Origin: Yamagishiella unicocca
Lineage: Eukaryota; Chlorophyta; Chlorophyceae; Chlamydomonadales; Volvocaceae
DNA: 64,000 nucleotides
NCBI GenBank assembly: GCA_003116995.1
Contig: BDSL01000037.1
Span: 124,001-188,000 of the forward strand
Reading direction: 5' to 3'
Position 1 is the first letter of the stretch. Every line of letters starts with the position of its first letter. A program made the position numbers and the translations under genes. Under the pieces are notes generated by a model, which worked only from the letters and a program-made list of their open reading frames with translations, ran no database searches and was not told where the DNA came from. Below are positions 4,058 through 34,552 of the stretch, piece after piece.

Positions 4058-5611
4058 TCAGCCCTGCTGCCCGCTGTCCCTCAAAGTCAGTGACGCCTGG
4101 GCGCGGGTTTGTGAGCTGGTGGTGCTGGCTGCGTCGACACCGTTATTACCGTTGCCGCTACGGCTACCGATGGCGGCGGAGCCAGTGCCGTCGCCGCTGC
4201 CGTTGTTACAGTTTGCGGTCCCCTCAGTGAGGCTGTGCACTCTGTTGCTCCGGATCCTCTGGGTGGTCCTTGACCCGCCCAGCGCGCTGCCCTCCCGCTC
4301 AACCCCGCCGCTGAGGGACGCGGTCGCGCGCGGCGTGCCGACAGGAGACTGGGGCCTCGGAGAGGCCCAGCCCTGGGCTTGAACGGGAGCAGAGGGCTCA
4401 GCTGCCGGGGCTGCGGCGCCGCCGTCGCCTCCGGCGGCAGTGACCGCTTGGCGCCGCCGGCGCCTCAATAGCACCACCGCCGCCACCACCACCACGATGA
4501 TCAGCAGCAAGCCGACGGCGCCACCAACCGCGCCGCCGATAATGGCGGCCTTGTTCTTGTCGTTCCCGTCGTCGACCTCCGTCGTCGCTCCAGGGGAGGT
4601 GATGACGGACGACTGCGCGACAACGTACGTGCCCACCGCGCTGACGTCACAGGCCAGCCTGCCGCTGACGGTGTCGTACACTGCCGTGACGGCGCCGCCG
4701 CCGGACTGCACGCCCGTCAGGCTGCCGGCGACGGCGTTGGTGGTGACGTTGTACGACAGGCAGGTCGTCAGCTTGAGGCTGTTGTAGCCGGGTGCCGGGA
4801 TGGTGAGCTTCAGGTAGTTGGTGCTGCCGTCCAGGGAGGGTGGCGAGGCGGCGGCGTCCGGTCCGGCGTTCCAGGTCACCGTTGTTAAGCCGCCGAGGAG
4901 CGTCACAGTGGAGGGCAGGCTGGCGGCCAGTGCGGCGGTAAGCCCCGCGGCGGCGGACGGCGCGTACTGCAGGTCGATGCCGTACCCGGTGGCGGCGGTG
5001 GCGGCGCCGCCAGCAAGCACCAGTTCCCCATCCACGCTCGAGGTCGTGCTGGAAGCTAAGCGGGTGCTGGCGGCGGCGGCGGCGGGGTCGGCGTCCGCCA
5101 CGGCTTCCGGCCCCGCGCTGAGCTGTACGACAGTTTTAGCGGCGCTGCTCGACGCCGTGGGTATCGCCGCCGCCGACACGAACACGCCGCTGTCGCCGGT
5201 CGCCAGGTAAGGCCCTCGTGGCACCGCTTGGCGGCCCAGCGCGTCGCCAATCAGGTCGGCCACGTAGATGAGGTCCCGGAGCCGGGCCCAGGCGGTTGCC
5301 GTGGTGGTTGCCGCGGTGGTTGTGGTGGTTGTGGTGGTTGGCGCGGCGGCGCTCTCCAGCACCGCGCGCCTGCTGGCTGAGCCGGACGCGCTGGGCAGGG
5401 CAGCGCCCATCAACCGGCACAGCTGCGTCACAAAGCTGGTGATGGCGGCGGTGCCGCCGCCGTCGGCGTCGCTGACGCCTGTGGCGTTGACGCCGCCGGG
5501 CAGGGTTTGAACCGCCGACTTGACGGCGTTCATGAAGGCCTCCTTGGCGTCGTCAGGTAGCGAGGAGGCGCTGGACGCGAGGGAAGCCATGGCCGCGATC
5601 GCTTGAGGCGC
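4058..5611 (-). CDS. giant gene, last exon: juxtamembrane region, TM helix, cytoplasmic tail
   Basis: The exon starts after CCGAAG at 5611 in phase 0. It holds about 350 extracellular residues rich in Ala, Thr and Ser, a Cys pair, then one strong transmembrane segment (about 4467-4552: [20 protein letters not shown] continuing to VLL) followed by a stop-transfer run of five Arg and a tail of about 120 residues rich in Ser, Thr, Gly and Asn, ending [12 protein letters not shown] and TGA. Topology: N-terminus outside, tail in the cytosol. No kinase or other known tail domain seen. A Thr-rich (ACC)n stretch near 5290-5340 is a coding microsatellite. Confidence 0.82.
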   Translation of the reverse strand, partial: APQAIAAMASLASSASSLPDDAKEAFMNAVKSAVQTLPGGVNATGVSDADGGGTAAITSFVTQLCRLMGAALPSASGSASRRAVLESAAAPTTTTTTTTAATTTATAWARLRDLIYVADLIGDALGRQAVPRGPYLATGDSGVFVSAAAIPTASSSAAKTVVQLSAGPEAVADADPAAAAASTRLASSTTSSVDGELVLAGGAATAATGYGIDLQYAPSAAAGLTAALAASLPSTVTLLGGLTTVTWNAGPDAAASPPSLDGSTNYLKLTIPAPGYNSLKLTTCLSYNVTTNAVAGSLTGVQSGGGAVTAVYDTVSGRLACDVSAVGTYVVAQSSVITSPGATTEVDDGNDKNKAAIIGGAVGGAVGLLLIIVVVVAAVVLLRRRRRQAVTAAGGDGGAAAPAAEPSAPVQAQGWASPRPQSPVGTPRATASLSGGVEREGSALGGSRTTQRIRSNRVHSLTEGTANCNNGSGDGTGSAAIGSRSGNGNNGVDAASTTSSQTRAQASLTLRDSGQQG

Positions 5612-8600: not shown

Positions 8601-11600
8601 GGCGGGGCCAGCGAGGGTGGCGAGGGGCGGGGAGCCAGCAGCCACCGCGAGAACGTCCGCGGAGGCTGCTGCCGAGTCTGGCGGCAGGAGGACACAGGGG
8701 CACAGGGGGAGAGTCAGGCAGGGCGTCAGCTGCGGTGTTGGGAGGTGGGCGTTGGAGTGATCCCGGCAGCCGTGTTGCAAGGTTTTACTTTTGACTCCAT
8801 GTTCACAAGCCACACCATATACCGGTAACAGCCACGCCGGGAAATGCAAGCCGGCTGTTCTTCAGCCTTGGGGATTCAGCCTTGGGGATTTTTATAAAAA
8901 CCCCCCGCCCTCCAGCCCCGCCACCCCCCCGCTCCAGCCCGCACCCCCCCGCCCTCCAGCCCCGCCACCCCCCTCCAGCCCCGCCACCCCCCCTCCAGCC
9001 CGCACCCCGCCGCTCCAGCCCGCACCCCCCCGCCCTCCAGCCCCGCACCCCCCCCTCCAGCCCGCACCCCCCCCTCCAGCCCCGCCACCCCCCGCTCCAG
9101 CCCCGCCACCCCCCCGCTCCAGCCCCGTCACCCCCCCGCTCCAGCCCCGCCACCCCCCCGCTCCAGCCCGCACCCCCCCCCTCCAGCCCGCACCCCCCCT
9201 CCAGCCCGCACCTCCTGCTCCCGTGTAGGCTGCGGTGACCCGCAGGCTGATGCCCTGGCCGTGAACTGCGTTGGCGACCGGACCGCGCAGAGTCAGCGAC
9301 TGGCCTGACTGGCCGCCGGAGGGTAGGCCCGACCAGCCGCCGGGCGCAGTCCATGCCCACGTCAGCGAACGACCTGCCGTACAATACACGCGCGGTGCAA
9401 AATTTAGGGGCACCGGTCAGAGGCGTTCAGGCGTGGTGGCAAGAGGGAGCAGTGCTGCCAGCAGATGCCGGGCGCGGGCCGTCCTCGGAAGTCCTTGTAG
9501 TTTGGGTTACCGGTGTAGGTCCCTCGCAAGCAACGACCTACGGTGTACCTCTTAATCGATCGCAAATCGGCCACCATTACCGAGCTCCACGCATCCCTAG
9601 GCCTGCCCCTCATTGCTCGCCTGCATTAACCCCCCTAACCCCTTACCTTTCAACCGCCCTCTGCCGCAACCGGCCCTCGACTGGTTTCCCCTGACTCCCC
9701 TCCACCCCCGTACCCCAAACACACATGCATACCCTCTCCCGGAAACTAACACACGTTTGTCCTCTTCTTGGCTGGCCATGAGATCCCCTCCACCCGTCCA
9801 CCCGTCCACCCGTCCACCCGACCACCCGACCCCACACGCCTCCACGTGTGCCAACCCACCCCACCCCCGCGCCCCTCCCCCCCGCCCCTGCCCCTCCCGC
9901 CCCTGCCCCCTGCGCCCCTCCCCCCCGCGCCCCTCCCCCCCGCCCCTGCCCCTCCCGCCCCTGCCCCTCCCGCCCCTCCCCCCCGCCCCCCTCATCCGCG
10001 CGCCCCTCCCCCCCGCCCCCCTCATCCACGCGCCCCTCCCCCCGCCCCCTCATCCACGCGCCCCTCCCCCCCGCCCCCCTCATCCGCGCGCCCCTCCCCC
10101 CCGCCCCCCTCATCCACGCGCCCCTCCCCCCGCCCCCCTCATCCGCGCGCCCCTCCCCCCGCCCCCCTCATCCACGCGCCCCTCCCCCCCGCCCCCCTCA
10201 TCCGCGCTCAGCGCTCACCCTTGCAGCCTCCTCCCGCGACCTCGCCTGACAGCCGCAGCCCTGAGCTGATGCGGAACTGCTGCACCGCCGGGCCCGTCAC
10301 CGCCACCACCGGCGCGGGGTTGCTCGAAACCACGAGGACGCTGGCGGTCGTTGTGCCGGAGGTGTTCAGCCACGAGGTTAGCGTGACCTGCGTGCACAGT
10401 GTCAAGGCGAAGTCACACCGACCAGATCCCGTGCGTTACTAGAAGTACCTAACGCCAAGGGGGAGGTCCTGCGTTCGAGTCTCGCGTGGGCCACCTAACA
10501 CTGTTCAACAGACTGAACGAAAAGAAAAGGAATGGGGTCGGACTTGCTTGGCAGCCGACCTACCATGCGCATCGTTGCAATCAACTGTCAATGGCCAATG
10601 CAAAAGATATCAGCTCAACTCGGATTCAGAGACCGAGCTACACCCAACAAGGAGAAAACCTCTGCGCTCTTATGCGTTCCTCGCAGTCCTATGTACGACA
10701 ATGCCGTACACAGTCGTCGTACGCACCTGCAGACGGTACTGCACGTCGTCCTCCAGGGAGGCCTGCTCCGAATCCTCGAGGGTCAGGCGCAGGCGGTCGC
10801 TGACGGGGCGGGGGGTGAAGGGGGGTAGAGGCGGGTAAAGGGGGGTAGAGGCGGGTAAAGGGGGGTAGAAGCGGGTAAAGGGGGGTAGAAGCGGGTAAAG
10901 GGGGGTAGAAGCGGGTAAAGGGGGGTAGAGGCGGGTAAAGGGGAGTAGAAGCGGGTAAAGGGGGAAACGGGGGTGAAGGGGGCGGGGACACTAGGCGATT
11001 TTGCGCAGTTCGTTTGCGGGTGTGGTAACAAGTACGGCACAGGTAGGGAAACTAAACCAGTAAGAGCGAACCTTCCTCAGGAGAGCCCGGCACCGCAAAA
11101 TAACGTAATCGATTGCAAAACACCGTAATCAGGCCATTAAAAAGAAATACAAGGTGCGTGCAACAGTACGACAGCCACCGCGCTGCATTGAACCCTATAA
11201 CCCTCAACCCGCCGGCCCCCCCTGTTGCCCCGCCCCCCCGCCCCGGGCCCCCCCGCCCGCCTCGGCCTCACGCACCTGACGTCCGGCAGCGCGTTCGTAC
11301 GGTCCACGGCAGCCTGCAGCGCGGCGCGGCCGGCGGCGCTGCCGTACTCCGCGGGCACCGACCAGCTCACTCCCGCCCACCGCGCACGCCCCGTCGGGTC
11401 CACTGACTGCGAGGCGTCGAAGGTGGCGGTCTGGCTTGACGCCGCTGCTGACAGCAGAGCGCCGGCTGCGCTCTCGCAGGCCGTGCGGGAGATACTGGAA
11501 GGGCCGGTGAGCCGCGCCTGGGGGGCGACGCAGGAGGTGCAGGACACCACCTGGGGGCCCGGGGGAGGGGCGGGGGGGAAGGGAAAACACAGCGGGGGAG

Positions 11601-14600
11601 GGAGCAGGGGGCCGCAGTGATTACAAAACACACATACACATACACATACACGTACACAGGGACTAGGGGCGGTGTTTGGCAGGCCAGTTGTGTGGTGCGA
11701 TTACCCAGGAGGCGCCTTCATGGACACCTGACGTTTGCTGATGTTGCTAACTACTCAATGCCTGGAACCCCTCAAAGGGCGAAGACGAGGGCGAGGGCGT
11801 TGTAGACGACAGCCTCACGCGTGGCATAGGAGCACGCGACACGGATGTACGACAGTACGACACCTACCGTTATGCTACCAGCAAAGGCCCTGGTGGTGTT
11901 CACGGCGCCGACCAGTGCCGAGCCGGAGGTTCGCAGCGCCAGGAGCTGTCCCGGCTGTAGATTTTGAGGGAGGGGAGGGAATGGGGCGGAGGGGGGCCAG
12001 GACGGGGAGGGGAGGGGTTTGGAGGACGGCTTGGGTTTGGCGCAAGTTCGGTGGGATCAAATGAGGAAAGTAATCGGAAATTTGAGGAAAAAACGACCAG
12101 CGCGCCGTCAGGAACGGGATGCGACATAACCCGCCTGGCCCACTCATTTAGGGACGCGACTACGGCGATTATCGTGTAGGCCTACAAGTATGCAGCACTG
12201 GGTTACCATTCGGTCGAGCAATCGAGCGCGACTAGGAGGTCCTTCGGTGTCGTACTTTGACGCGTGAAAAAGCGGTGCAAGGCTCTGAGGCACACGCCAA
12301 TAAGACGGTATCTTAGCAAAACGCGGCGAACGCCGTCCGTTTCGCTCGCCAAGCCTCGCCCTGCTGGTGACTCACCACCAACGTCGCGTTGGCCGCCAAC
12401 CGAACTGTGAGCACCGCGTCATCGGAGGTGGTGCTGCACAGCGCGGCGCCGCCGCCCAGCATCGTGTTGGAGGTCGCGTCGAAGATGCTACCGCAAGGCA
12501 CCAGTGACAGCGGCGCAGCGCGGGCGCTCAGCGCCAGCGCCACCGTCTTGCCATCGTCCGCCAAGCTCGCTGCCGCCAGCCCCAGAACACGGGGCTGACA
12601 AAGCGAGGAGCACGTCACCTGCACCCAGGCGGTGCCACGAAGCAACAAGGGCAAATCCAGGGGGGTTACATAAAAGAGGTCCAGGGGGGTTACATCAAAG
12701 AGGTCCAGGGGGGTTGCATCAAAGAGGTCCAGGGGGGTTACATAAAAGAGGTCCAGGAAGGTTGCATAAAAGAGGTCCAGGGGGGGTACATCAAAGAGGT
12801 CCAGGGGGGTTACATAAAAGAGGTCCAGGGGAGTTGCATAAAAGAGGTCCAGGGGGGGTACATCAAAGAGGTCCAGGGGGGTTGCAAAAAAGAGGTCCAG
12901 GGGGGTTGCATAAAAGAGGTCCAGGGGGGGTGCATAAAAGAAATCCCAGGGGGTTACATAAAAGAGGTCCAGGGGGGTTACATAAGAGAGGTCCAGGGGG
13001 GGACGCTCAAGGAACGACTGGAGTAAACTGTGCAGAGGGCAACGCTGCGCTTTAAAAACATGGGTTACGTTATCGGACCCGAGTAGCGCATACGGGTAAG
13101 AGGTGCACGATAAACGGAAGCGCGCTGACACCTGACACTCTGAGCAAGGTTACGCGAGTTGAGGGGGTGTCTGTAGCGTAAGGTCCAAGTCAGTGGTCCC
13201 TCCTTTTCCGGCCCCTCCCTTTCCATTCGAGACAAGGCTCCGTAGGCACCGTGAAGCATTAAACTAACAGTGACGAGAGACAGATTACAGGAGGCTTTTA
13301 AGTCAGAAGCACCTCTTTCCCAAGCCCCGCCAACCAGCGGGCCGGGCCGGGCCGTCCGGCCAGCGCGCACTCACCTGGACTAGGGCCTGACTGGCAGCGT
13401 CGCAGGTCCACCTTGTGCACCCCTGCACGAGCGAGCACTCGCTATCCACGCCGCACTGCTGGTCGGAGGATGATGACGAGTCACATGTGACGGTGCCCGC
13501 ATTGAGCCGTGCCACTGAATCCAAGGTACTCTGCATGCTGCAGAACGATGTGGGTGGTGGCGGGCTTGGACGTACTGCACTTGGAGGCGATGGGCTCGGA
13601 GGCGATGGGTTCGGAGGCGATGGGCTCGGAGGCGGTGGGTTCGGAGGTGATGGGTTCGGAGGCGATGGGTTCGGAGGTGATGGGTTCGGAGGTGAAGGGT
13701 TCGGAGGTGAAGGGTTCGGAGGCACTGGGTTCGGAGGCGATGAGCTCGGAGGGGATGAGCTCGGAGGTGATGAGCTTGGAGGCGATGAGCTCGGAGGGGA
13801 TGAGCTTGGAGGCGATGAGCTCGGAGGGGATGAGCTTGGAGGTGATGAGCTCGCAGACTCGGGGCTTGGAGGTGATGAGCTCGCAGACTCTGGGCTCGGA
13901 GGCGATGAGCTCGGAGGCGATGAGCTTGGAGGTGATGAGCTCGGAGGCGATGAGCTTGGAGGTGATGAGCTCGGAGGCGATGAGCTTGGAGGTGATGAGC
14001 TCGCAGACTCGGGGCTTGGAGGCGATGAGCTTGGAGGTGATGAGCTCGCAGACTCTGGGCTCGGAGGCGATGAGCTTGGAGGTGATGAGCTCGCAGACTC
14101 GGGACTAGGAGGCGATGAGCTTGGCGGCGATGAGCTCGCAGACTCTGGGCTCGGAGGCGATGAGCTTGGCGGCGATGAGCTCGCAGACTCTGGGCTCGGA
14201 GGCGATGAGCTTGGAGGTGATGAGCTCGCAGACTCGGGGCTTGGAGGTGATGAGCTCGCAGACTCGGGGCTCGGAGGTGATGAGCTTGAAGGCGATGAGC
14301 TCGCAGACTCGGGGCTCGGAGGAGATGAGCTTGGAGGTGATGAGCTCGCAGACTCGGGGCTCGGAGGCGATGAGCTTGGAGGCGATGAGCTCGCTGACTC
14401 TGGGCTCGGAGGTGATGAGCTTGAAGGCGATGAGCTCGCAGACTCTGGGCTCGGAGGTGATGAGCTTGGAGGTGATGAGCTCGCAGACTCGGGGCTCGGA
14501 GGCGATGAGCTTGGAGGCGATGAGCTCGCTGACTCTGGGCTCGGAGGTGATGAGCTTGAAGGCGATGAGCTCGCAGACTCTGGGCTCGGAGGTGATGAGC

Positions 14601-17600
14601 TTGGAGGTGATGAGCTCGCAGACTCGGGGCTCGGAGGCGATGAGCTTGGAGGCGATGAGCTCGCAGACTCTGGGCTCGGAGGCGATGAGCTTGGAGGCGA
14701 TGAGCTCGCAGACTCTGGGCTCGGAGGTGATGAGCTTGAAGGCGATGAGCTCGCAGACTCGGGGCTCGGAGGTGATGAGCTTGGAGGTGATGAGCTCGCA
14801 GACTCGGGGCTCGGAGGCGATGAGCTTGGAGGCGATGAGCTGGCAGACTCGGGGCTTGGAGGCGATGAACTCGGAGGTGATGAGCTCGGAGGCACTGGGT
14901 TGGGAGGCGCTGTGCTCGGAAGCACTGGGCTCGGAGGCACTGGGCTTGGCGGCAGTGGGCTTGGTGACAGTGGGCTCGGAGGCAGTGGGCTTGGCGGCAG
15001 TGGGCTTGGTGACAGTGGGCTCGGAGGCAGTGGGCTTGGCGGCAGTGGGCTTGGCGGCAGTGGGCTCGGAGGCACTGGGCTCGGAGGTGATGGATTTGGC
15101 GGCACTGGGCTTGGCGGCTCTGGGCTTGGCGGCAGTGGGCTTGGCGGCAGTGGGCTTGGCGGCAGTGGGCTTGGCGGCAGTGGGCTTGGCGGCAGTGGGC
15201 TTGGCGGCAGTGGGCTTGGCGGCAGTGGGCTGGGCGGCAGTGGGCTCGGAGGCAGTGGGCTGGGCGGCAGTGGGCTCGGAGGCAGTGGGCTCGGAGGCGG
15301 CGGTGAGGGGCATGTGGAGGAGCATGATCGAGTTCCCAAAGGTGTCATTGTGCCCGTCAAGTTGGTGCAGACCTCCAGCGGAATGAAGGTCGTCAATGCA
15401 GCAGCACCCGAGGAAGCATTCGAGGGCCAGGAGCTGGCCTGTGCCGTGCAGTCGGTCACTGGTTTGAAAACGGAGAAGGCCCAAGCGCCGATGTTGCTAG
15501 TGCGGTAGGAACGGCAGCCGTAGACGTCGATGGAGCAAGAGGGGTCGATGGCGGAGCGTGTCAAGTTCCAGTTGGGAAAGGCGTCGCAGGCGGGTTGAGG
15601 TGGCGGCGGCAGAGGCATCGTCGCATTGGCGGAGCTTGGGTTGCCCAGGGTGATAGCGTTGAGGACAAAGCTGGAGACGGCGTCATTGGCGGGGTTGCAG
15701 GTGACGACGCGGGTTTGGAGCGGCACCGGCGACCCGCAGTCGCACTCACTCCAACCGCCTGGCGTCGTTACATGGGTAGCACATGGATGGGGTGCATTGC
15801 GACGGGCGGGTTGTTCAAATGTGCTGGGGGCGGGCAGGGGCACACGCGGTGAAGCAAAGTGCCTGGGCTACGGTTTCCAATGGTGGGCACAGGTAGGCGA
15901 CCAGTCTCTGTGACAGTGCAAGTCTCTCTGCTAGTGCCAATCGTGCGTCTAAGCGTTCCTCGGGCTTCGCTCCAGGAGCAAACATGACGGGCAGGGAGCT
16001 GCCCTAATTCCGCACTCGCCTAACCTGTGCATAAACGCGTACACGATATCGGTGAATATTGCACTCAATCCGCACCCTGAGTGTAAGTGTTTCCCATCGA
16101 ACGTAAAACATGTACATTCGAAGAAGCCTGCGGCAGCTCGTCCACAACCCACAGAGAGGTCAACCTACCAACTGAAAAGTTGTACGGGGGCTGTACACCA
16201 AACGGCTCCGAGTAGTTGGTGGTTACTCCGTCACTGATTCGTAGGAAGAAGCGGGGGGTGCCCGCTGCCGCCACCACTGCCGCCGTCAGCTCGGGCAGCT
16301 CCGAAGCCAGCGGTACGCGCCACTTCAGCTTGCCGCCGGCAAGCGTCAGGTTCGTTTTTTCTGCGAGCACCGCCAGGGCCTGCGAGGCTGGCCGCTGCTG
16401 TTCCTGCTGGGTAGCTCCAGAAGGCGGATCGGTGGCGCAGTCCGATTCGTACCTGATCAGGCGCATACATCCCGCAGCGACGGCAGTCAGACGCTATGGC
16501 CATACACAACATCCGAATCATTCGCCAGGCAAAGTTTAGCAAAATTGATGCCGGATGTACTCGTCAAATCAAGTGACGCTATGCCACACCTCGCTTGCGT
16601 TCCAGACGCCTCATAAACGACACAGCAGGCGGCAAAGCACGACGGGTAGCGGAGGGCTGGCAGCGGCACGGCACAGCACAGCTGCCACGCATGCAACCCG
16701 ACACCAGACAAAGGCCGCACCATAGAGTGATGTCGAGCGGCTGTGCCACCCCACTCGCCCAGCCGATGGTGGACCAGTGCACGGCCGTGGTGGCGCCCTG
16801 CCGGGTGGAGAGGCCGTGATGGACGAGGCTGTGTAAACTACAGGTGTTGGTGTTGTGGGCAGTGCTCGGATTATCAACCATATGACACAGGTTGGCAAGG
16901 GTGTTCAATCAGGGCGTTTGTGTCTGGTTGGCCAAAGCCGACGACCTGGCACCTAGCACCCTGGCCACACGTAGCAGCCTGACCACGTAGCAGCCTACCC
17001 ACCCAGCGGCCTACCCACCCAGCGGCCTACCCACCCAGCGGCCTGCCCACCCAGCAGCCTACCCACCTGGATCAGCACCTGTCCAGCAGCTGGCAGCACC
17101 ACCGCTGGTGCGCCGGCGAGCAGACCCTCGCCGAGGCCCATGCCGCCGCCGCCCGCGGTGCCGGACACACCCGCTGCCGCGCCGCCCATGGCCCCCAGAG
17201 ACATGCACAGTGGCCGGCGGGGAGGGGCGGCTGCGCCAGACGTGGTGGTGTTGGCCTGTGGAAAGGAGGCAGCGGGGTGGCATGCGGATATCAGTAAATT
17301 ATCGACCACACAACAAAAGGACAGACACACACAATGGGTCTCCCTCCCTCTACCGGTAGCATAGAGCATGTTAGTTAAACAAAAATCTGAGACGGTAGCA
17401 CGTTCATATCAAACCATTGAGACGCCTCGCAAACACCTGCCTTTCCAGCACCCAAGGGGCTGCCTTTACATGTTCCCTTCCGCCCGCTCCCGCCCCCCGT
17501 ATGTGACGCTCCTCTCGAGACCCAGCATGGAGTCCCTGAATGAGCGCCTGCCCCCCCCCCTTGGATTCGCGGATGTATTTCATACCCCCCCCCAGCCTTT

Positions 17601-23600: not shown

Positions 23601-26600
23601 CGTACATATCCTAGGATGTACCGGATTATGACCCGTTATGGCCGGCAGCGGCTTCGTATATACGTAGGTTATCCAAGCCAAGCCAAGCAACGGGACTTCA
23701 CCTCGTTGTGTATCATGGATCACTACCGAGCGCATAGATGGGCCTTACTTTCAGGAAATTAGCTCCCAGCACATGGATACACGCACCGTTCCAGCTGCAG
23801 CCGTTGGGACAGGACACGATGCTGCAGGTGAGGCCTCCGAGACCGTGTTTGCAGGTGCAGGACCAGGTGCGCGTCTGCTTGAAGGCCGTGCTCACATTGC
23901 AAAAACCCTGGTCGAAGGTGCACCTGAAGCGAAACGAAAGAACGCGGCCGGGGAAGGATGCGATGCCGCCAGGCGCGCCGTTGTTACGGCAGTTGTTAGT
24001 TGTTAGTTGTTGGTTAAGGACGCACGCGCACCGCCGAGGTCGCCATGGTGGACACAACCGCAGGCAACCGACGGGGTGGCGGCGACGAATACGTACCTAC
24101 ATACCGACACGGCACTACATGTGCGACATCGCTCCGTACGCACGCTGCTTAAAACCTCAAAGCGTACGATTAGCGGCCTCCACGAGATACCCACCATCTG
24201 ATCAGGTCGCGCCACCTTGATGCGGCTAAGCTACGCATGACTCATTCCCTTCATTAGTAAGTGACATCACGCTATTGCAGGCCATCAACACCAGACCCTG
24301 ACCCCCATCTCGGAGAGCTTACGTGACTCAGTCGCTGACTCAGTTCCGGTCGTGACCTCACTCACTTATAGCCGCAGTTGTACTTCTCCACGTAGGTTGT
24401 GTTACTGCAGTCCGATCCGCTGTAGCCGCTGAAGCACATGCAGCGGCCATCCGCCAGGCACTCGCCGTTGCCGCTGCAGCCGGAGCCGCCGCCGCACGTG
24501 GTCGGGTCGGGCGGCGGCGGCAGCGCGCACGTGAGGCTGGAATTGAGATACGACATAAGGCCCTGCCAGCGGTGGAAAGGTTCAAAAAGGCAAGGGAGGG
24601 TGGTAAGGCGAGGCCAGGGGGGCGTGGACTACCTTGACTTGAGGGAACCGTTACCCCTATCTGTTTTCCTCAGGTAATGGTTGGTGGCAGTGTACGGTGC
24701 GTGCCTACCCCGTGCTCGCACTCAGCTTCAGAAAATAAGCAAATAAATTCCTCGTAAGCTCCTTAACCGCCCTGTAATTTCCATAACTTGTAATGTCTGG
24801 GCGGCAGGCTTTCTCAGACCCTCCAGTACTACATACCGCCCGTGATGTCGTATTAAGAAACCTAAGGCCGGCGCCTTCCGAAGCAGATGGGTGTAGGCGC
24901 ATCGTCATATCATCCTCTATCTAGCTGCATAGACACTTTATACGGGTGGCGTGCGCGGGCGCCACCCTCCCAGCGCAGAGGCGCAACTCCTTCACGTCTC
25001 CTGCGTCGTTCCCATGAGTTTCCTCTCCACCCCAACCCGGAGGCTTTGCCTACGGCGACGGAGCCGCAACAGGGCAAACCCCACCTCCGACCCACCCACC
25101 CACGGCGGGTCGGTACCGACCCACGGGTTTTCCTCTTGTACCCACCGACCCACCGACCCACCGATCCCCACCTGGTACTTCGGAGCGTCACTGCGGTCCC
25201 AGTCCTGAGCTTCAATAAGGCCCCAGCTGCCGTACTTGGTGTATGCCCCGATACTAGAGAAATGCACCACGCGGCTGACGTTAGCGGCGGCCAGGCCGGA
25301 CATGTAAAGCTGGTAGATGCCAGTCATTGAGGGATGGCGGTTGGCCTATGCGGTAGGTGACCGGTGGGACGGTTGGGCTGAGTCAATGACGGTTGGCGGG
25401 CATGGCGGGGAAGCAAGGCGGCGGACCCTTGCAGGAAGGCCGGGAGCTAGCAGCTTAGGTGACCCCAAAAGCCTGAGCGTCCGCGAGGATTTGCAATCCT
25501 GCCTCCTTCTTACCTGTATCGACAGATCGGCTGTGGAGCCATCTCCGTTCATTCCCTGACCTGCCTCGTACGCCACGAGTGCCTTGCCGAAGGACGCGGC
25601 GACGGCAGCGTGCTGATTAACAAGCGACATGGTGTCGTTGACCTGATGATGGCACGGGCGCGCAGGGAGGATGGAAGGTGGTGGTCGGTGGTTTCGGAGG
25701 CAGGGCGAGGAATGGCGGTGGTGGGCTTGTCGAACAAGGGAGGCAGGCACATGGCACAACCACCAGTGCCAAGGGCACGGGGAAAGTCGCCAACGCCGAA
25801 GACAGAGAGGGATAAGGGCAAATGTGAATGTCAGGGACAGAGGCTACAGCACGCCCAGCCCGGTTTGTCACGAAGAGGACGTGTCACAAGGACAACGTTC
25901 GAAAGGGCCATACAGCCTAACCGCGCACTACTGCAAAACGACCCCTAGATTTCCACTGCCGTACATCTGCTAGCGCCAATCCGCACCTGGCTCGGGAGAG
26001 TCACATCCATGAAGTACGTCAGGTTGGTGTCGCGTGTTTTGTCGTACGACCCAAAGTACGGCGCGATCGTCAGCGCGTCGATGTGCGCGCCGGCGCCGCC
26101 GCACGACAGCAGTTTGGAGCTGGTGATGGGCCAAACCGCCTGCCCCGAAACCACAACCACCACTTGCGAGGAGCGGTTGCCCCAGACTTCCTTCCAGATC
26201 TTGCTGATGTTGGCGGTGCGTTGCCCCACGAAACACAGCCGTGCTTCGTTGGTGGCGCCACCTGATGGGGCCGCGTGAGTAACGCCAGACATACACAGTG
26301 GGGTGTGTTACGTGATCTGTGCGTTTTTTCCGTTGGACGAACAAACACGGCATCGTGCACGTGGCACGAACAGCAGCTGCCACGGACCAAGGGACCAGTG
26401 AAACAACACATTTCCGTCTGGACGAGCGCCTTGCATCTCCTCAACCTCCAAGCAACGGTAGGCGCCTCCCATGCCACCATCCCGCGCCGCATCCGCCATT
26501 CCAGTCATCACTACAGGCGTTGACAGTTGGCCGTTGCGCACCGTTGCTGTTTCAACGGTCTGTTTCTGATCGTTATGCCGCCTTTTCCGTCACTCACCGT

Positions 26601-29600
26601 ACCACTTGTTGCCCTGCTCGGTGAGGTTCATGGCCAGCCCCATGGCCTGCGCGTACTGGCCTCCCGGGAAACCCGTGTGCCACAGCTCGTTGCCGTACTC
26701 CACGTACACACGCAGGTCGGGGCGCAGGCTGTCACGGACCAGGGTCGCGAACTGAGCCACGAAGTCGTCGCTGGCGGCGTGGGGGATGTTGAACCACGGG
26801 TCGGAGCCCAGCGTGTTGGCCAGTAGCACCATGTGCTCAATAGGCACGCCGCCGAGGTTATCCGCGAAGGACCTGATGAGGCGGCGGCGAGCGAGGCGGG
26901 GTTGAGGTGCGAGGTTGAGAACCTCACTAATGAGGCGCCCATTTCAGGGTTTGGGTTAGTTGTCGACGTGGCAGGTGTGTTTATTTGTAATCATGGAACG
27001 AAGGGAAGCTCGCGGAGTCGGCTTCGGTAAATAACCGTCGCGAACTCCCACCAGTCAGGGTTACACTAGATGGTCCAACCGTTGCCGTCGGTTGGTTGCA
27101 ACACCCGTATGCTATCCGTACGGCACGCGCCACAGAGCAACTGCCAAGCGGAGTACAGGCTTCGCGCGGAATGCTCGGATGCGGTTCCAGCGACCAGCGA
27201 CGATCACCGCTGTGCAACCTATCCGGCGCACCTATCCGCCACCTGCCGTCAGCCAGCCCAGTCGCGGCAGGCCCCATACCCTTACACACATCATCACGAC
27301 CGAATCGCTACCCCAGTAACATGCAATGCGCGCCACGCACTGCACACTACGCACAATGCGCCCCACACCTGTCGTCCACTTGCGGCCGCTCGTCCCACTC
27401 CCTTGGCAGGGCCTCCACGTTGGTGTGCATCCAGTCCATGAAGCGCAGCATGCCGAAGGGGCGAAGGAAGGACAGCAGCGCGGGGTGGAAGGGCTGGCCG
27501 CCCCACACGGCCGCCTGCTCGTAGCCGGGGGTGAGCACGCGGATGTTGCGGATGGGGTCGGTCGGGTCGGTGCGCTCTATCATGACCAACATGCCTGCAT
27601 CGTGGTTGTTGGATGGGGCGAGTGGTTGGAAGGTAACCGACAGCGGTTGGGAGTTCGTTATGGGCAACGGCGGGCAACGAATTAGATGCAAACGTGCATG
27701 GCACGGCTGTGTGTTGCCTCAATTGCTGGAGTTTCATTTTTTTTTTCTGTTTTTGGATATAGCGCATTTCCTCACACATGTGTGTGTGCCCTTCGCATAG
27801 TGGGAAACGAAAAGGGCAGGCGATTGTTGCTGCACTTGTGCTCAACAGAATCGTCCTCCAGGGCTCCAGCAGCGCTTACCGTTGTTGAAGTCGGTTGAGG
27901 GGCGGAAGGTGACCCTCACGTGACCCGCCGCCACATGCACAATGCTGCTGACGTCACTCATCCCGAAGTCCAGCGCCCCCTTGCCGTCGTACAGCACGGT
28001 GTACACGCCTGTACGGGCGCGGCGTGACGTGGGGTGGTGTGATGTACCGTGGCATACTCAGACGTAATAGAGACGTTTCGTGACGTGGTCTGACACGGCG
28101 TGCCTTGGCTTGACGCGGAATCGCGTGTCCTGACGTGCGATTTCGACGTGGCTTTGACGTGGCATGTGGTGACGGTTCGGTGCGTGACGCGCGTGCTGCA
28201 GAAGGAACAAAAAGATTTGAAGTGGTGAGAGCACCGTGTGGGAAGGGGAGGGGGTGGCCCGCCTCGCTCGCGGCCGTCGCCAGCGCAACGACGTGGCGAC
28301 GACGTGGCGGAGTCTGGCCCAGCCTCACCTCCCGGGTAGTGCGCCTGCAGGTCTCGTACCACCAGCGTCGAGACCTTCTGTGTGGGCGCTAGGTACGCGG
28401 GGTAGTCCACTGCGACACGGCCCCCCGGCCCGTCGGTGCGGTTGATGCGGGCGATGCTGGCACCAGTGCTCCAGGGAGGGTCTGGAGCATTCCAGGGAGG
28501 GGGGGAGGGGGAAAAGAGGGCAGTTGCGCGATCGCGGCTGTGTTTTTTTAGGGATAGCGAGTTGTACGACAACGAGGAATCACTCGTTTAAGGAGCTCAA
28601 ACCAACCCACTGTCAGGCTGCGTAAGCCGATGGAACTTAGGATTCCTGCGCACTCACTGGGCAGGAACGACTGAGGGATCCAGGCTCTCGAGGCCTTGAA
28701 CACGTCCACAAAGGTCCAGCTCCGAGACCAGTCCGAGATACCCTCCAGGTTCATCCCCACGCGCTGGCTGCAGGCTGACGGCGTGCCGCCCTCGCCCGCC
28801 GCCGGCAGCGACTCGCAGGCCGTGCCGCTCACCCCCGCCCAGCACGCGCACGTGCCGTTGACACAGCTGCCGTACACGCAGCTGGGCGAGCAGGCCGGCG
28901 GCTGGGGCACCGCCGGCGGCGCGGTGGCGGAGCTGCGCGGCAGCGCCCCCGGCGCGGCGTCGTACTCGGTGCCGCCGCCGCCGCCGTCGGAGCCGACCGC
29001 CGCCAGCCACGCCCTAAGCGCCCTGTAGGCCGGGGAGTCGGCGGGGCGCACCACCACCAGCGCCGCCGCCTCCGAGGTGCCCTTGCACTCGTCCGGCGAG
29101 TAAATGCCTAACCTGGATCCAGGGTTTTCGGAGCAGGACCTGGCGAATCGCGTCACGTCCACCACCACGTCACCTCCTCGCATCTGGGCGTGCCAGCGCC
29201 ACAGCGAGTCCAGGACCATGTCGTACATGCTGTCGTGCTGCCGCGCCTGGCGGAGTACGGACTCCAGGGCGGCCTCCCTGGAGGCGTTGGCGGCTAGGTC
29301 CTGGCGCGAGGCGTTGAAGGCGGCTTGGTCGGCCCAGGTGACGAAGGAGGGTCCGCCTGGGGGGAAGGGCGGGATGCAAGGAAAACCGTTGCCGCGACAG
29401 GGACAGGATAGTTGGCGCATGGTCGCGAAGGCAGGGAGGGAGGGAGCGAGGGAGAGAGGGAGGGCGGGATTCGAGGGAAACCCGTGGATGTCCGAAAAAA
29501 ACCGTTTAAAACAGAAGGGAGGGAGGGACGGTTGGGAGGGAGCGAGCGACGATAGGGGGGGCGCCGCCAGAGCCGGCAAGCGCCAGCCAAAGTACCAATC

Positions 29601-32600
29601 CGGGCTGTACTGGTCAGCAGACGAGGCATGGGCCCTCTTTCCTGCCACGTGTTCCCTCGCCTCCCGCCTCACCCGAGTACGCCAGCGGCGGGTAGATGTT
29701 GCTGAAGTTGCAGGGCCACACGGTGGTGTTGGCGCCGCAGGCCAGCACCGCCCGGTCGTAGTTTGACCGGGCGCCGTACAGCGGGCCGATCATCTCGGGC
29801 CCGGCACCGTAGCCCAGCACCTCCAGCCCCAGGCTCCGAATCCACTGGTAGCCCTTATTGTACGAGATGTCGGCCATGATGACAGCGGATCTTGCCGTAC
29901 AGGTGTAGGGCGGTCGGGTGCGTGGTGCGGGAGGAGGGGGAGGGCGGGTGAGCCCAGCGGTTTGGTACGGGAGGAAAACCAGCGGGTCAGCAGTGACCCC
30001 TGGGTCGGCACTGAGCCCAGCGTGTGGGGGGGAGAGGGCGAGTGGCCTAATGCCCCCCCCCACGGACCCCTGCCGTACACCTGCTTTCCTTCACACCGCC
30101 GTACCTCAGGTAGCCGAGCACATCGTCCAGCCCTGGAGCCGTCGGTCGCTTCGCCCCAAAGTAGTTTCCGTCTGCCCAGTAGGTGGGGTTGGAGTGGCCG
30201 GGCCAAGACCAGTAGGCGTTGCCGCCAAAGGACGCCGGCACCGCTATGGCGTCGATGTATGACAAGTTGGTGCCGGCGTACTGCAATATGTTCGAGGGGC
30301 TGGCAAGGGGGGAGGGGAGAGTGGGGTGGGGGAGTTAGAGGGCAGCAGGACACGGGGAGGAGGGCGGTTAGAGGGGGTTGACACTAAAACACGGCCCAGT
30401 GGCGTTTGTCAGGTTGGCTGAGATGGGCGGCTGCGATAGGATTGACGTGCGCCATCCAGCGGGTCTAGCACGCCCCACTCCCGCTGCTGTGCTACACCCT
30501 GGCTGAAACCGTAGGCTGCAACCCCCTCTCCTGCTTCTGTGCTGCACCCTGACAGGAGCCGTGAGGTAGCCCCGCTGTAAAACACGTTCCAGGAAGCGCG
30601 CTGCGTCGGCAGGGAAGCAGCCAGCTACAGCGCGCGCGTCCTCCGGCTACGATTCTACAGCGCTCACCCAGCCGAAGGAGTAGTCATCACCATCCTCAGC
30701 TGCCCCCGCGGCCGCCCCGCGGCCGCCCACGCCCGTGTCGCAACGCCGCTGAGCAGCTGCGTGTTGGTTGGCAGGTGGGAGCCCAACCACCCGGGCGCGT
30801 CGATGCCGTACTCAACGGTCAGCGTCAGGTTGGACGCCAGGTTGGTTGCAATGTACGACACCATGTTGTAGATGTACGGATCGGATTCGTTGGCGGCCCG
30901 CGGCAGGCTGATCCACATGCTGGAGCCCAGGGTGTTCGCCAGCTGCACCAAGTGCTCAACAGCCACGCCGTCAGCCTCTCGCACCTGGAGGAGGAGGCGG
31001 GAGAGGCGCGTTTCATACACAGAGGGTCGGGGCGTCCAATGAGGGCAGCCGGGATTTGATCCTGAGCGCGTCAGCCCGGCCGCCACCAACTGCCGTCAGC
31101 CGTACGCCCAGCCCTACTCGGAATCTTACATGCCATCCCCCGACGGCACAATCACTATACTTCCCACCTCGCCTGACTCATGCCGTACCATAACGTGCAG
31201 TCCTCGCCGCCCCCTCGCTGCCTCCCCCCTTTGACACCTTCCCCTCCTCCCTCCCCCGCCTGACTCACCTGCGTGCTGTGCAGGGGGGTGGTGCGGAGCG
31301 CCCAGTCCCTCGGAGCCACCCGGGTGCTGCCCGTGTTGGAGCTGGTCCGCATCCACGAGGCGAACCGGAGCAGCCGCACGCCCTGTACGCAGGTCGACAG
31401 GCCGGAGGGCCGCGTGTCCTTACAATTGGAGCGTGCAGTGTGGTCCAGATGGGTGGAGGGTGCCGGGGGTGCCAGCATTACCAGAGGAGGGTGTTGGGGG
31501 CGCTAGGACCACCAGGTAGGGGGGGGTGGGGGCGCTAGGACCACAAGCAGGCTTGAAGCTCAACGTACGCGACAGGTCGCACGCACGACGCTGGCCACCA
31601 GGCAATCCCCCATGGGCATCGCGGCCGTGGGTTTGTCGGCCGTGGGTTTGTCGGCCGTGGGCTCGCGGATATATGCCCCCCTCCCGTCTCCCTTTGCCCC
31701 CATCTCTGCCCCCTCCCGTCTCCCTCTGCCCCCCCCCCCCTCTACCCTCCTATCGCATCCAGCCATGGTCGCATATGCAACCCGGTGCTCCGCTGGCAGA
31801 CACCTCCGAGACGTCCACCCAAAACCCCAACCACCCGCTACCGGCACCAGCAACCGTCAACTGCCAACGTCCACTGCCCTGCCCGCACCTGGAGCATGTC
31901 CAGGAAGTCGGGGTGGTAGGGCTGCTGATGGTGGGTGGCCTCGTGGGCGGCGGGTACGATTCGAATGTTGACCAGCGGGTTGGCGGCGGCGGAGGAGAGG
32001 ATGCGAACCACCAGGCCTTTGGGAGTGACGGGGGGGTTGTATAAAAACCGGTTTACGCAACAGGACAGGATAGTTGGCGGGGGGGGGGGGCACAACAAAA
32101 GAACCGGTAACGCGACTGGGGAGATGTAGTGGGTGCATAGGGGGAGGGTATAAGAGAATCCGTGGGGGCCGCGGTAAGGAAGCAGGGTAGACGGTAAAGA
32201 GGCAGGGCCGTGGAATTGGTCAGTGGTGCCAGCTCGTTTTATATGTGACTGATCTTGTATTTTTGTCGGTACCCTGCCCTTCCTGCTCTTTGATGCCGAC
32301 AGTAAGAAGCGCCCAGGGGACGTACGGCCCTAGGCATTGGGGCCAGTAACGGGAGCGAGCAGGAGCCTACAACTGTCGACATGGGTGCGTTATGTAACTA
32401 ACACGGCAGCAGAGTGCTGCAGTGGTGGGTTCTACCCTCCTGCCCTCCTGCCCGTTGGTGGAGGCTCCGGGCACCTGTTGTGGTGGGGGTGATGTCAACC
32501 TCCATGCGGCCAGCGGCGGACGACACCGGCGGCGCCGCGGCATCACCCACCACCTCCAAACTGCCCTCGCCGTCGTACAGTACGACATAGCGGCCTGCGG

Positions 32601-34552
32601 AGGGGGCGGACACGCCAGGGCAGGCAGCGCTTGGAAGAGACCACGTGCGGTGTTACGCGGCGTGGATGGGTTTCGGAGGAGAAGAGGATTCGGACGTGGA
32701 TGGGTTTGGGGGGAGAGGAGGAATCATCACGGGACGACATGCGACGTGGGCTGTGGCGACGTGCGACGTGCTGTGCGTGTGGGCTGTGGCGCCCCTACCC
32801 GCCCTACCACTTCCTCACAATGGAACCCCGCCCGCAAACCAACCAGCTACTCTCCGTCCCACGCACTTACCCGTCATGCCGCGCACTGTCGCGCTCCCCA
32901 TCGCATAGAAAAGAGCTCCGAGGCCCCCTCCCCAACTGACAGCTTCGCTGGTGAGCGCCCCCCCCCCCCAATTCTCATGCTTGGCGAGTACCCCGCCAAC
33001 ATCCCACCCCCGCCGCCATAAGGCCCACGTGGCGTGTATTGTGCCCCGCCCCCCGAACCCACCTGCCGTGTAGTACGCCCCGCCCTTGCCGATGGTGGCC
33101 GCTGCTGACCACTGGGACCCCGAGGTTGGGTTGAGCCCTGAGGCGGATAAGAGGCAGGTGGGCAGTAATTTTATTTTGCTTCTTACAACTGAAGCTGCCA
33201 GATGGGGCGGCGGCGGCCCCAATGGAGTTGAGAAGCGACGAGGGCTGTGAAGGGTGCTATGGAGCGGGGAGGGTAGGTTGTGTGTGTACGGCAAGCCGGC
33301 AGGAGGACGTACGGCTGAGGGCGAGGTGAGGTGAGGTGAGGTGGCGGGGGGTACGGCGAGGTGATGTGGGGGGGGAGGTGAGGTGCGGAAGATCGCGACA
33401 TACACGAAGCGTACATACACTCCCTTCTTCTCCTGCTTGCCGCATAGGCACCTCGCCGCCTTCCACATAGTTGGGATTCCTTTATGTGGGTTCCTGCCTG
33501 ATGCTGATGCTGCTGCCGCTGCTGCTGTTGTTTGACCTAGCGCTGGTTACCGCTCGCAGGCAATGACCGCGAAGCTTCACGTCTCCGGTTGCGCCTTCGG
33601 CAACGTCATTAATGGGCCGGGCTAGGCTTTCGCCTCTTTTTTCTTATCCGATTGGTTGATACAATAATACACACGCGCACCTGCCGGGTATCCGTCGGGT
33701 CGCATGGGCACGGTGGCGGGGTTGAGGTAGCCCCACGCGTCGTTGCTGTTGTTGCGGCGAGAGCCTGGGTTGAAGGCTGTGGAGTGCTGTGAGGCGCGTG
33801 AGTGTGGTGGGAGGCAAGACAAGGTGATTCCGAAAGCGCGGTAAGGAGGTCAGGCAAGGGGTTCGGGCAAGGGGTTCAGGCAAGGGGTTCAGGCAAGGGG
33901 TTCAGGCAAGGGGTTCAGGCAAGGGGTTCAGGCAAGGGGTTCAGGCAAGGATGTAGGCACCCCCCTGGTCGGAGAGGGTCCGCAACACTTCGAGCGGTGT
34001 GTTCGGAGGTACACCGGGGGCGTGCCGGGGGTTTGCTGGGGAAGCCGGGGGGTGTCGTACTGATGGGCCGATGAGAGTGATATAAGACGGCGGCGCTGCA
34101 GGGGTGCAGAATGAGGTATGCGAGCGGGCATGTCTGGACGGATACATGGTACAGCACTTCCTGCTGAGCAAGGGAACCAGTAGAGGGGCGAGCGTGGTTG
34201 GCATATGCTGGCGTATGTACACAACCACATACTCGATCCCACCTTCATCAGGTTAACAAAGACAAGGCTGTTTGCGCTCGCCCACCCGCTGCTGTATTGG
34301 GCCGCGGAAAGATCCAAGGGAGGCAGTGCCAGACCTGCGACCAGGGGCGGCCCGACATAAGTGCTCGAAGCAGGGCAAGTGCTGGGAATGGCTGCCTACT
34401 ATCTTGGTATATCAGACATACGTATAGAGATTACCTGTCAGGCCCGCGGTGGCCAGCCTTGCGCCAAGCAGTGCAAAACATGCCGCCACAAACGCACTGA
34501 CTGCAACTCCCCGGAATTTTGTAGCATCTTGTAGGTGCCGTTTCATTTGCAT
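4058..34552 (-). CDS. giant mosaic type I membrane protein: 3 GH-like modules, EGF repeats, KNH, TSP, Ser-Pro rod, REJ, TM
   Basis: One gene of about 45 exons with about 12.6 kb of coding sequence (about 4,200 residues), starting at ATG 34552-34550 and ending with TGA at 4060-4058. I followed it exon by exon: each exon has AG/GT borders and the phase handed over fits the next exon at all but two places. These are after exon 2 (an exon or a longer exon 2 is needed between 33765 and 34242) and the donor of the exon at 23727-23923. Single exons carry the end of one module and the start of the next (28658-29356 joins module A, an EGF repeat and module B; 24366-24562 joins B and EGF; 22480-22770 joins EGF and C), so the modules belong to one protein. 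The least certain link is module C to the KNH domain (17.6-17.3 kb). Likely role is a wall/matrix or adhesion receptor; this is inference. No named gene recognised. Confidence 0.78.
5648..5775. repeat. 25-bp minisatellite in intron of giant gene
   Basis: Five near-perfect copies of taaacagccggattggggag plus agatgga, in the intron between exons 5877-6044 and 4058-5611. Confidence 0.9.
5877..12618 (-). CDS. giant gene, REJ (receptor for egg jelly) region
   Basis: Exons 12376-12618, 11868-11954, 11276-11550, 10727-10799, 10219-10387, 9212-9373, 8497-8677, 7447-7630, 6320-7015, 5877-6044; every junction keeps phase. Typical REJ strands are visible: [35 protein letters not shown] with [20 protein letters not shown], and the late signature [16 protein letters not shown] with [12 protein letters not shown] and LRYEF, which in polycystin-1 reads as the NAPPxGGxCxVxPxxG and GWxDxxxPLxYxF stretch. 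The domain is an extracellular beta-sandwich stalk near the membrane. There is no sign of the PLAT domain or multi-pass channel of polycystins after it, so this is not a polycystin. Confidence 0.75.
8890..9211. repeat. C-rich intron minisatellite
   Basis: Irregular array of ctccagccccgccacccccc units filling much of the intron between exons 9212-9373 and 8497-8677. Extreme strand bias (C on plus, G on the transcribed sense strand). Confidence 0.85.
9840..10205. repeat. 30-bp C-rich minisatellite in intron
   Basis: About a dozen copies of a unit built on cgcccctccccccc and gcccccctcatccgcg, in the intron between 10219 and 9373, ending just before the donor of exon 10219-10387. Confidence 0.85.
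10808..10970. repeat. 20-bp minisatellite in intron
   Basis: Eight copies of gggggtagaggcgggtaaag directly at the acceptor side of exon 10727-10799. Confidence 0.88.
12655..13005. repeat. 24-bp minisatellite in intron
   Basis: About fourteen copies of ggtccaggggggttacataa plus aaga in the intron between the rod exon and exon 12376-12618. Because 24 is a multiple of three, it reads through on the minus strand as LDLFYVTP repeats, but the splice phases of the flanking exons exclude it. Confidence 0.88.
13545..15310 (-). CDS. giant gene, Ser-Pro rod of about 590 residues
   Basis: Uninterrupted coding repeat inside exon 13375-15758. From the N-terminal side: a [10 protein letters not shown] block, a block of 15-residue units of the kind [15 protein letters not shown] (about 45 nt each), then PPNPSPPNP. 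This is the composition of chlorophyte hydroxyproline-rich glycoproteins, in which Pro in SP runs is hydroxylated and arabinosylated to make a stiff polyproline II rod, as in pherophorins and gamete agglutinins. After the rod come Cys-containing residues ([22 protein letters not shown]) to 13375. The plus strand is also open here for almost 700 codons only because the repeats are in register; it is not taken as a gene. Confidence 0.85.
15310..15758 (-). CDS. giant gene, thrombospondin-like and Cys-containing head of the rod exon
   Basis: First part of the long exon 13375-15758. It opens with [20 protein letters not shown], which has the W-S-x-C-x-C and R-x-V-x-C spacing of a short thrombospondin type 1 motif. 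About 110 further residues follow with Cys and N-X-S/T sites ([29 protein letters not shown]), ending at CSSTCP where the Pro-rich rod begins. The second half is not recognised. Confidence 0.6.
16169..17255 (-). CDS. giant gene, linker and Kre9/KNH-type beta-sandwich domain
   Basis: Exons 17067-17255, 16721-16797, 16169-16452 (phases 0, 2, 1). After a Gly/Ala-rich linker the chain reads [10 protein letters not shown], then [16 protein letters not shown] with QPLDITLW, then LKWRVP and [13 protein letters not shown] followed by NYSEPFGV. This is the order of strands in the Kre9/KNH family Ig-like domain (about 100 residues, common in secreted fungal and algal proteins). It probably binds glycan or protein partners; no catalytic role is expected. 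It is the join between the enzyme-like head and the rod, and the point where a gene boundary would have to lie if there were two genes. Confidence 0.65.
17646..22645 (-). CDS. giant gene, glycoside-hydrolase-like module C (acid pair kept)
   Basis: Exons: end of 22480-22770, 21413-21613, 20893-21142, 20070-20201, 19646-19822, 18838-19116, 18154-18561, 17646-17714; all phases agree. Motifs: [99 protein letters not shown] (split by the intron between 19646 and 19116), [34 protein letters not shown], and a last helix [12 protein letters not shown]. It keeps both the NE pair and the YEAG Glu. Of the three modules it is the most complete and closest to the bacterial relatives I remember (YVEYSNEVWN type). 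Activity and substrate unknown. Confidence 0.75.
20222..20420. repeat. G-rich minisatellite in intron
   Basis: Repeats of ggttccggagcagggagg with variable spacing next to the acceptor of exon 20070-20201. Confidence 0.85.
20586..20612. repeat. short interstitial telomere-like repeat
   Basis: aaaccctaaaaccctaaaac contains two to three units of CCCTAAAA, the complement of the TTTTAGGG telomere unit of Chlamydomonas. It lies in an intron of the giant gene. Other single degenerate units occur nearby (19180-19195, 19452-19462). Confidence 0.6.
21828..22368. repeat. 14-bp minisatellite, about 38 copies, in intron
   Basis: Head-to-tail aggctgggtgaaga / aggctgggtgaaaa units occupy most of the intron between exons 22480-22770 and 21413-21613. 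Three units make 42 nt, so the minus strand can be read as [14 protein letters not shown] repeats, but this is intronic. Confidence 0.92.
22645..24530 (-). CDS. giant gene, EGF-like repeat cluster between modules B and C
   Basis: Exons 24366-24562 (second half), 23727-23923, 23058-23226 and the beginning of 22480-22770. Four or five EGF/tenascin-like repeats follow each other, for example [73 protein letters not shown] and [20 protein letters not shown]. The GYSG-DC ending is typical of the family. For the exon starting at 23923 two donors are possible: GTAAGG after 23749 (phase 0) or GTAGTG after 23727 (phase 1); only the second keeps frame with the next exon. No calcium-binding D-I-N-E-C motif here, unlike the gene at 49-54 kb. 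Confidence 0.78.
24520..28780 (-). CDS. giant gene, glycoside-hydrolase-like module B (acid pair kept)
   Basis: Exons: end of 28658-29356, 28329-28481, 27880-28008, 27369-27594, 26598-26872, 25987-26261, 25514-25642, 25172-25345 and the start of 24366-24562. Motifs in order: [113 protein letters not shown]. The NE pair of VEYGNELW sits where clan GH-A enzymes carry the acid/base Glu, and YEAG is where the nucleophile Glu would be; both are present. Substrate unknown; a wall or matrix glycan is a guess. Many N-X-S/T sites fit an extracellular location. Alternative: a binding module that happens to keep these residues. Confidence 0.72.
28813..28896 (-). CDS. giant gene, EGF-like repeat between modules A and B
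   Basis: Within the long exon 28658-29356. The Cys pattern [18 protein letters not shown] followed by AGVSGTACE is a compact EGF/tenascin-type repeat with six Cys. It sits after a Pro/Ala linker that closes module A and directly before the GMNLEG start of module B, so it acts as a spacer. Confidence 0.8.
28993..34334 (-). CDS. giant gene, glycoside-hydrolase-like module A (probably inactive)
   Basis: Exons 34243-34334, (one unresolved), 33681-33764, 33063-33137, 32475-32594, 31889-32016, 31269-31382, 30668-30984, 30105-30299, 29673-29890 and the first half of 28658-29356. Motifs in order, shared with modules B and C: W..F..LMK near the start, [79 protein letters not shown]. These resemble a family of secreted bacterial and algal proteins, often labelled cellulose-binding or hypothetical, with a TIM-barrel clan GH-A look. 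Module A lacks both expected acids: modules B and C have NE after the VEY/VEH strand, here it is GID; they have YEAG later, here it is GYGAG. It is therefore probably a non-catalytic, perhaps glycan-binding copy. Family identity is moderate; the relation to B and C is clear. Confidence 0.7.
33843..33955. repeat. 13-bp minisatellite in first introns of giant gene
   Basis: Tandem ttcaggcaagggg units (about eight) in the region where the unresolved exon of module A should lie. They may have expanded there and hide its borders. Confidence 0.88.
34435..34552 (-). CDS. exon 1 of giant gene: signal peptide
   Basis: Short frame starting ATG at 34552 (a second in-frame ATG at 34546). It encodes a basic n-region [15 protein letters not shown] followed by a hydrophobic stretch [20 protein letters not shown], a textbook secretory signal. 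It ends at a GTAATC donor in phase 1. The next exon (34243-34334) begins after CGCAG with two bases that complete a Gly codon and leads straight into the first conserved motif of module A. This decides the start of the gene. Confidence 0.75.

Follow-up and report, generated by a model that had tools for sequence, protein, structure and literature searches.

A single giant gene of Yamagishiella unicocca joining glycosidase-like modules, a Ser-Pro rod and an REJ stalk, with a predicted role at the matrix-facing cell surface

In the sea-urchin sperm REJ/polycystin-1 family, an REJ domain stands behind a carbohydrate-related head. Ser/Pro rods are found in the hydroxyproline-rich glycoproteins (HRGPs) of the volvocine matrix (pherophorins and others), and the members of glycoside hydrolase (GH) clan GH-A, such as GH51 arabinofuranosidase, GH39 xylosidase and GH79 heparanase/glucuronidase, have in common a TIM barrel and a Glu pair on strands 4 and 7. 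Here we describe a gene sharing features with all three, located in a window of 64,000 nucleotides from the volvocine alga Yamagishiella unicocca (assembly GCA_003116995.1, 133.4 Mb in 1415 contigs; contig BDSL01000037.1, positions 124,001 to 188,000, here C37:124001-188000). Its predicted product differs from the sea-urchin REJ/polycystin-1 proteins in having GH-A-like modules instead of lectin domains and a GPS that is suggested only. Unlike polycystin-1/PKD1 it has one transmembrane helix, without a polycystin-1-type bundle, and no PLAT domain was found in Pfam scans of segments of the protein. It is membrane-anchored, unlike the HRGP matrix proteins, and the Pfam matches to the scanned segments included no pherophorin domain.

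One gene from signal peptide to cytoplasmic tail

Stop-free frames and a splice/codon model gave one minus-strand gene in the window. The refined model comprises 45 exons (34552-4058), with an ATG at 34552, a stop codon at 4058 and a product of 4231 residues; all 44 introns are GT-AG, with lengths of 100-866 bp. Refinement was partly manual, covering exons 1 and 2 and a number of further borders (the automatic model began at 34248), and the reading frame of the rod was favoured through a bonus in the model. The score over "no gene" was 1044 for the minus strand versus 209 for the plus strand, and dinucleotide shuffles scored 0, with no gene in 20 out of 20, this control being rough since the model was trained on exons of the same gene. 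When a gene break was forced at seven sites between 17.4 and 12.7 kb, the score fell at every one, by 18-30 log units. Because the model had seen the gene's own exons, greater weight is given to a tblastn comparison with eight related proteins of other genomes, which matched 42 of the 45 exons (the unmatched ones being exons 31, 37 and the hand-set exon 1) and nothing on the plus strand. Each of these proteins also matched 274-1184 bases outside the modelled exons, so some exon borders may be off; for the Volvox africanus and Pleodorina proteins, the two listed, these bases form stretches touching exon edges. The single large gene at 34552-4058 (-) was thereby confirmed, and the original prediction of one giant gene of about 45 exons stood, the related proteins running across the doubtful stretch at 17.6-15.8 kb.

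All parts of the protein are encoded on the minus strand. Exon 1 (34435..34552), with an in-frame stop upstream of its ATG, encodes a hydrophobic N-terminus that is a likely signal peptide (hydropathy peak at residues 16-34). It is followed by three GH-A-like modules, of which the first is degenerate: module 1 (28992..34332, residues 41-624), an EGF-like domain (28812..28895, residues 657-684), module 2 (24524..28769, residues 699-1202), an EGF cluster (22647..24499, residues 1211-1398) and module 3 (17646..22601, residues 1414-1959). That exons bridge modules, as had been claimed, is seen in the exon at 29356-28658, which holds the end of module 1, the EGF-like domain and the start of module 2. 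Behind this head come a Kre9/KNH-like domain (16169..17207, residues 1976-2143), a Cys-rich "TSP-like" segment (15310..15757, residues 2143-2292), a Ser-Pro rod (13543..15309, residues 2293-2881, with 246 Pro and 255 Ser among its 589 residues), a Cys-rich domain with the next domain, which form the N-terminal part of the REJ family (11548..13542, residues 2882-3048, also carried by 11 other loci in the genome), and an REJ/Ig-like stalk with a family in the genome (4657..11547, residues 3049 to ~4033). The C-terminal region consists of a pre-membrane motif, C-x(5)-G-[ST]-[YF] (4600..4651), found in 12 of the 14 proteins examined, a single transmembrane helix (4466..4549, residues 4069-4096, hydropathy 3.26) and a cytoplasmic tail of 135 residues ending in a TRxxAxL motif and the stop codon (4058..4465). 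Module order and the one membrane anchor were thus as predicted, judging from the gene model, the related proteins and hydropathy.

The domain names EGF and REJ are firm by their Pfam matches: the EGF cluster matched EGF_Teneurin above the cut-off (E 1e-9), and REJ (PF02010) scored 40.3 bits against a curated cut-off of 25 (E 2e-10). The EGF-like domain between modules 1 and 2 has a weak EGF_TEN match of its own (E 0.036) and is conserved in related proteins. The other two names fared less well. KNH is a weak match (12.8 bits against a cut-off of 24.6, E 0.22) to a domain conserved in the related proteins and in the paralogs on contigs C69 and C74, and TSP found no backing: the segment is 40-57% identical to its counterparts in related proteins, and Pfam gave no family for it at E <= 1, TSP1 included.

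The interval between the TSP-like and Cys-rich BLAST matches was compared in the five proteins having both. It measures 26 residues in both V. africanus proteins, 32 in V. reticuliferus, ~95 in V. carteri and ~160 in Astrephomene (the last two including unmatched TSP-like sequence) versus the 589 residues of the window's rod. Because of this difference, the long rod is taken as a local lengthening at a place already holding a Ser/Pro linker. The pre-membrane Cys motif, which presumably resembles a GPS devoid of its cleavage residues, is without H-L-S/T, and Pfam GPS was unmatched. A C-terminal transmembrane helix, the only one beside the signal peptide in the window protein, also occurs in six of the eight related REJ-carrying proteins. 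TRxxAxL lies near the end of all six aligned tails, followed by RQES in four of them, the window's tail not included; this conserved motif fits a possible intracellular role.

The glycosidase-like modules

Catalytic residues were tabulated only for module matches of >45% identity, and the table does not include C69, C74, C. reinhardtii or the metagenome proteins. Both residues of the Glu pair are retained in module 2 (candidate acid/base E967 and candidate nucleophile E1114; 10/10 sequences) and in module 3 (E1707 and E1862, respectively; 11/11), and module 1, with D313 and G458 at the corresponding places, is without the nucleophile and the N-E-x-W motif in all nine sequences with letters there. 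Accordingly, the Asn-Glu after strand 4 and the nucleophile on strand 7 that characterize clan GH-A are present in modules 2 and 3 and absent from module 1. Of the three glycosidase-like heads originally proposed on an REJ stalk, the carbohydrate-enzyme-like character of the heads was upheld, and module 1 turned out to lack the catalytic motifs. The predicted structure of a relative, P0062, is a (beta/alpha)8 TIM barrel with the Glu pair on strands 4 and 7, and among the best 50 structural matches listed the top one was an arabinofuranosidase. P0062 differs from the clan GH-A glycosidases (GH51, GH79, GH39) in sequence (8-13% identity) and in a beta-rich stretch at about residues 77-158. The glycosidase call is based on fold and residues, and on no family model; the modules are predicted to belong to an unnamed GH-A-like family.

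This family has >1000 database relatives, and module 2 shares 34-38% identity with named bacterial ones. In the module tree, from which module 1 units are absent since they failed the length and score filter, 36 of 143 modules, the eukaryotic ones, group together (support 0.995), a grouping that is partly circular because it uses our own labels, with eight metagenome proteins (P0001, P0004-P0007, P0039, P0131 and P0132) labelled eukaryotic by EGF domains or by similarity to the algal proteins. Module 3 groups there with five mollusc proteins, "uncharacterized" EGF proteins of Pinctada, Haliotis, Ostrea, Saccostrea and Batillaria that carry a module-3-type module, with EGF domains in front in Pinctada; these entries (745-767 residues in four, 538 in one partial) were compared for module and EGF alone. 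Bacterial relatives of the module adjoin GH20 and GH9 genes (locus L137), a Spherulin4 gene (L100) and cohesin/LysM and dockerin proteins (L109).

The two halves in volvocine algae and in the Yamagishiella genome

Residues 1-2290 as query yielded a list of 12 proteins, to which the REJ part as query added 10. Seven of the 12 (two from V. africanus, one each from V. reticuliferus, V. carteri, Pleodorina, Astrephomene and C. incerta) unite modules, KNH-like, TSP-like and REJ domains in one protein, some lacking an end; the remaining five, from Gonium, C. schloesseri, C. incerta (a second protein) and two metagenomes, are REJ-less, the metagenome proteins also being without KNH- and TSP-like matches. 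The same order from modules to REJ was found in Vafri_21080 and Vafri_21078 (V. africanus), PLESTB_001660900 (Pleodorina starrii), HXX76_015752 (Chlamydomonas incerta), VOLCADRAFT_95837 (V. carteri) and XP_001698904.1 (C. reinhardtii). The V. carteri model starts in the EGF cluster and that of Pleodorina inside module 1. The gapped old C. reinhardtii model matches modules 1-3, EGF, KNH-like, TSP-like, Cys-rich and REJ parts in order, many of them partially, with no match for the first EGF or for the domain after the Cys-rich one. These comparisons showed that the head-to-REJ protein occurs as one from Chlamydomonas to Volvox and is not unique to the Y. unicocca genome. Of the genera in which a check for the same domain order had been proposed, Volvox and Chlamydomonas have it, the listed Gonium protein being without REJ. 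Relatives are already in databases as "hypothetical" or "EGF-like domain-containing"; no description of the protein or of the module family was found in the open-licence papers searched.

In a tree of modules 2 and 3, the window gene and six further volvocine proteins with REJ form one group (support 100; 62 with C. incerta added). The REJ-less sequences from C69, C74, C. incerta and C. schloesseri form another (69), Gonium lies outside, and the base is weak. V. africanus Vafri_7444 (P0140) has the same REJ chassis with an N-terminal SRCR domain as head; therefore, heads of more than one kind stand on this chassis. In two REJ-less proteins, P0128 and P0129 (C. schloesseri and C. incerta), the Thr/Ser/Gln/Ala repeats annotated at the C-terminus look like a proline rod translated out of frame, an error that also arose in our first splice/codon model at 15.3-13.6 kb and on C69.

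Within the Yamagishiella genome, GH-like modules lie only on C37, C69 and C74 (32/32 matches). On C69 and C74 the modules are followed by KNH- and TSP-like domains, and then by a stop codon on C74 and by a long Ser-Pro rod on C69, with repeat-like sequence beyond it as far as examined, to 551 kb; no REJ match was obtained on either contig in a search that scored 48 of 82 candidates. REJ loci were found on C2, C4, C61 and C67 and at eight places on C100, and a proline-rich stretch precedes the Cys-rich domains in the same open frame at all 11 places read. Since heads and REJ loci also occur apart, the sequences indicate that heads and REJ chassis are separate families, each in its own right, and that the window gene belongs to a line having both. 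A recent fusion of head and REJ genes made in this genome was considered and dropped, as related proteins elsewhere carry both halves. The eight rod-REJ type loci of C100 lie at ~137-375 kb, and the same Cys-rich domain occurs once each on C2, C4 and C61. On C69, the repeat-like sequence after 546 kb may represent a mobile element whose insertion truncated the gene.

This separate occurrence, with heads free of REJ matches on two contigs and REJ loci free of heads on five, could also suggest two adjacent genes in the window, or a chimeric assembly with its join within the repetitive Ser-Pro rod, which is a 45-bp repeat array. Such an explanation is very unlikely: eight annotated proteins from seven species unite both halves, and the junction is spanned by one exon without stop (15758-13375) that holds the TSP-like segment, the rod and the first Cys-rich domain of the REJ part.

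Minisatellites with units of 13-88 bp lie in introns of the gene (33950-33850, 22365-21822, 20418-20233, 13001-12656, 10964-10813, 10207-9859, 9212-8900, 8078-7920 and 5775-5654), two of them touching an exon end, and a satellite at 42186-46229 has 23 copies of a 176-bp unit, 97% alike. Predicted plus-strand neighbours are a Med20-like gene (107-2551; Pfam E 7e-6) and an HhH-GPD DNA-repair glycosylase (57217-63875; E 9e-8), a prediction that may join two genes.

Possible functions at the cell surface

The sequence itself gives the head, EGF spacers, KNH- and TSP-like domains, rod, stalk, transmembrane helix and tail, and from these we infer activity, substrate, location and signalling. We propose, giving it about even chances, that the protein is a volvocine type I surface membrane protein in which modules 2 and 3 would be retaining glycosidases, binding and trimming extracellular matrix glycans, and module 1 a pseudo-enzyme working as a glycan-binding domain; the rod would determine how far the head extends into the matrix, and the head would be coupled to the cell through the REJ/GPS-like stalk and the tail. 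It would then be a membrane-anchored, matrix-facing glycan-binding receptor, and probably a glycan-trimming one, and the REJ-less paralogs may be secreted matrix forms of the same head. Arabinose-rich HRGP O-glycans are a first guess for the substrate, because algal HRGPs carry mainly arabinose and galactose (PMC11015965, PMC10837150) and the top structural match was an arabinofuranosidase; fold matches do not decide the substrate.

Several observations weigh against this proposal. The predicted fold is that of a relative and of none of the modules in the window, and function does not follow from a shared fold. With hhalign, the module gave no significant alignment to small GH5, GH39 and GH42 profiles (P 0.12-0.28; control GH9 0.73). 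No Pfam family recognized the module across 56 relatives, with none of GH51, GH79, GH39, GH5 and GH42 among the 25 listed of 27 matched families, and neither did any NCBIfam family in the six relatives scanned. Sequence searches of solved structures gave no match at E <= 1 for query A1 and two chance-level matches to PLP (pyridoxal phosphate) enzymes for query A2. The neighbourhood evidence comes from few chosen loci (7 neighbour proteins at 5 loci, picked by eye). C. incerta module 1 keeps a Glu in the acid/base column, where the alignment is gapped, and in the C69 paralog the part of module 2 that follows N-E is covered by no exon of the gene model. Conservation of the tail is poor beyond its short motifs, and that of C. 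incerta falls outside the alignment.

If the heads were no longer enzymes in algae, all three modules could be lectin-like glycan binders and the protein a structural linker between membrane and matrix, as the degenerate state of module 1 in 9/9 sequences and the large multidomain adhesive architecture with EGF domains and rod would suggest; the Glu pair retained in modules 2 and 3 speaks against it, and we consider this possible though doubtful. REJ domains also occur in non-gamete polycystins, and the REJ-less paralogs here and in C. incerta fit a matrix role at least as well as a role in mating. These two points count against a gamete-recognition receptor resembling sea-urchin sperm REJ, whose head would recognize the partner's coat and whose REJ domain would trigger the mating response. 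Such a receptor, which we regard as improbable, would agree with an REJ domain combined with a carbohydrate-related head and a membrane anchor, and with the link of REJ proteins to sea-urchin gamete recognition and the candidate REJ protein of the brown alga Ectocarpus (PMC4700764).

A more far-reaching form of the glycan-trimming proposal, which we put forward as a speculation unlikely to hold in full, is a catalytic receptor, with cleavage of the wall or matrix as the means by which the cell would sense it: on an extensible rod, a pair of active glycosidases of the unnamed clan GH-A family and a substrate-holding pseudo-enzyme would pull the REJ/GPS-like stalk, and the tail would report tension and glycan, whether released or bound. 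To our knowledge, no surface sensor is known for the wall-integrity response of Chlamydomonas. That such a response exists is stated in PMC10762512. If true, the catalytic receptor would be a candidate wall-integrity sensor for Chlamydomonas and Volvox. The protein, single-anchored and found in unicellular as well as multicellular species, is in itself a testable candidate, as these organisms allow knock-outs. Two gaps, an unmodelled GH-A-like family and a missing wall-integrity sensor, are joined in it.
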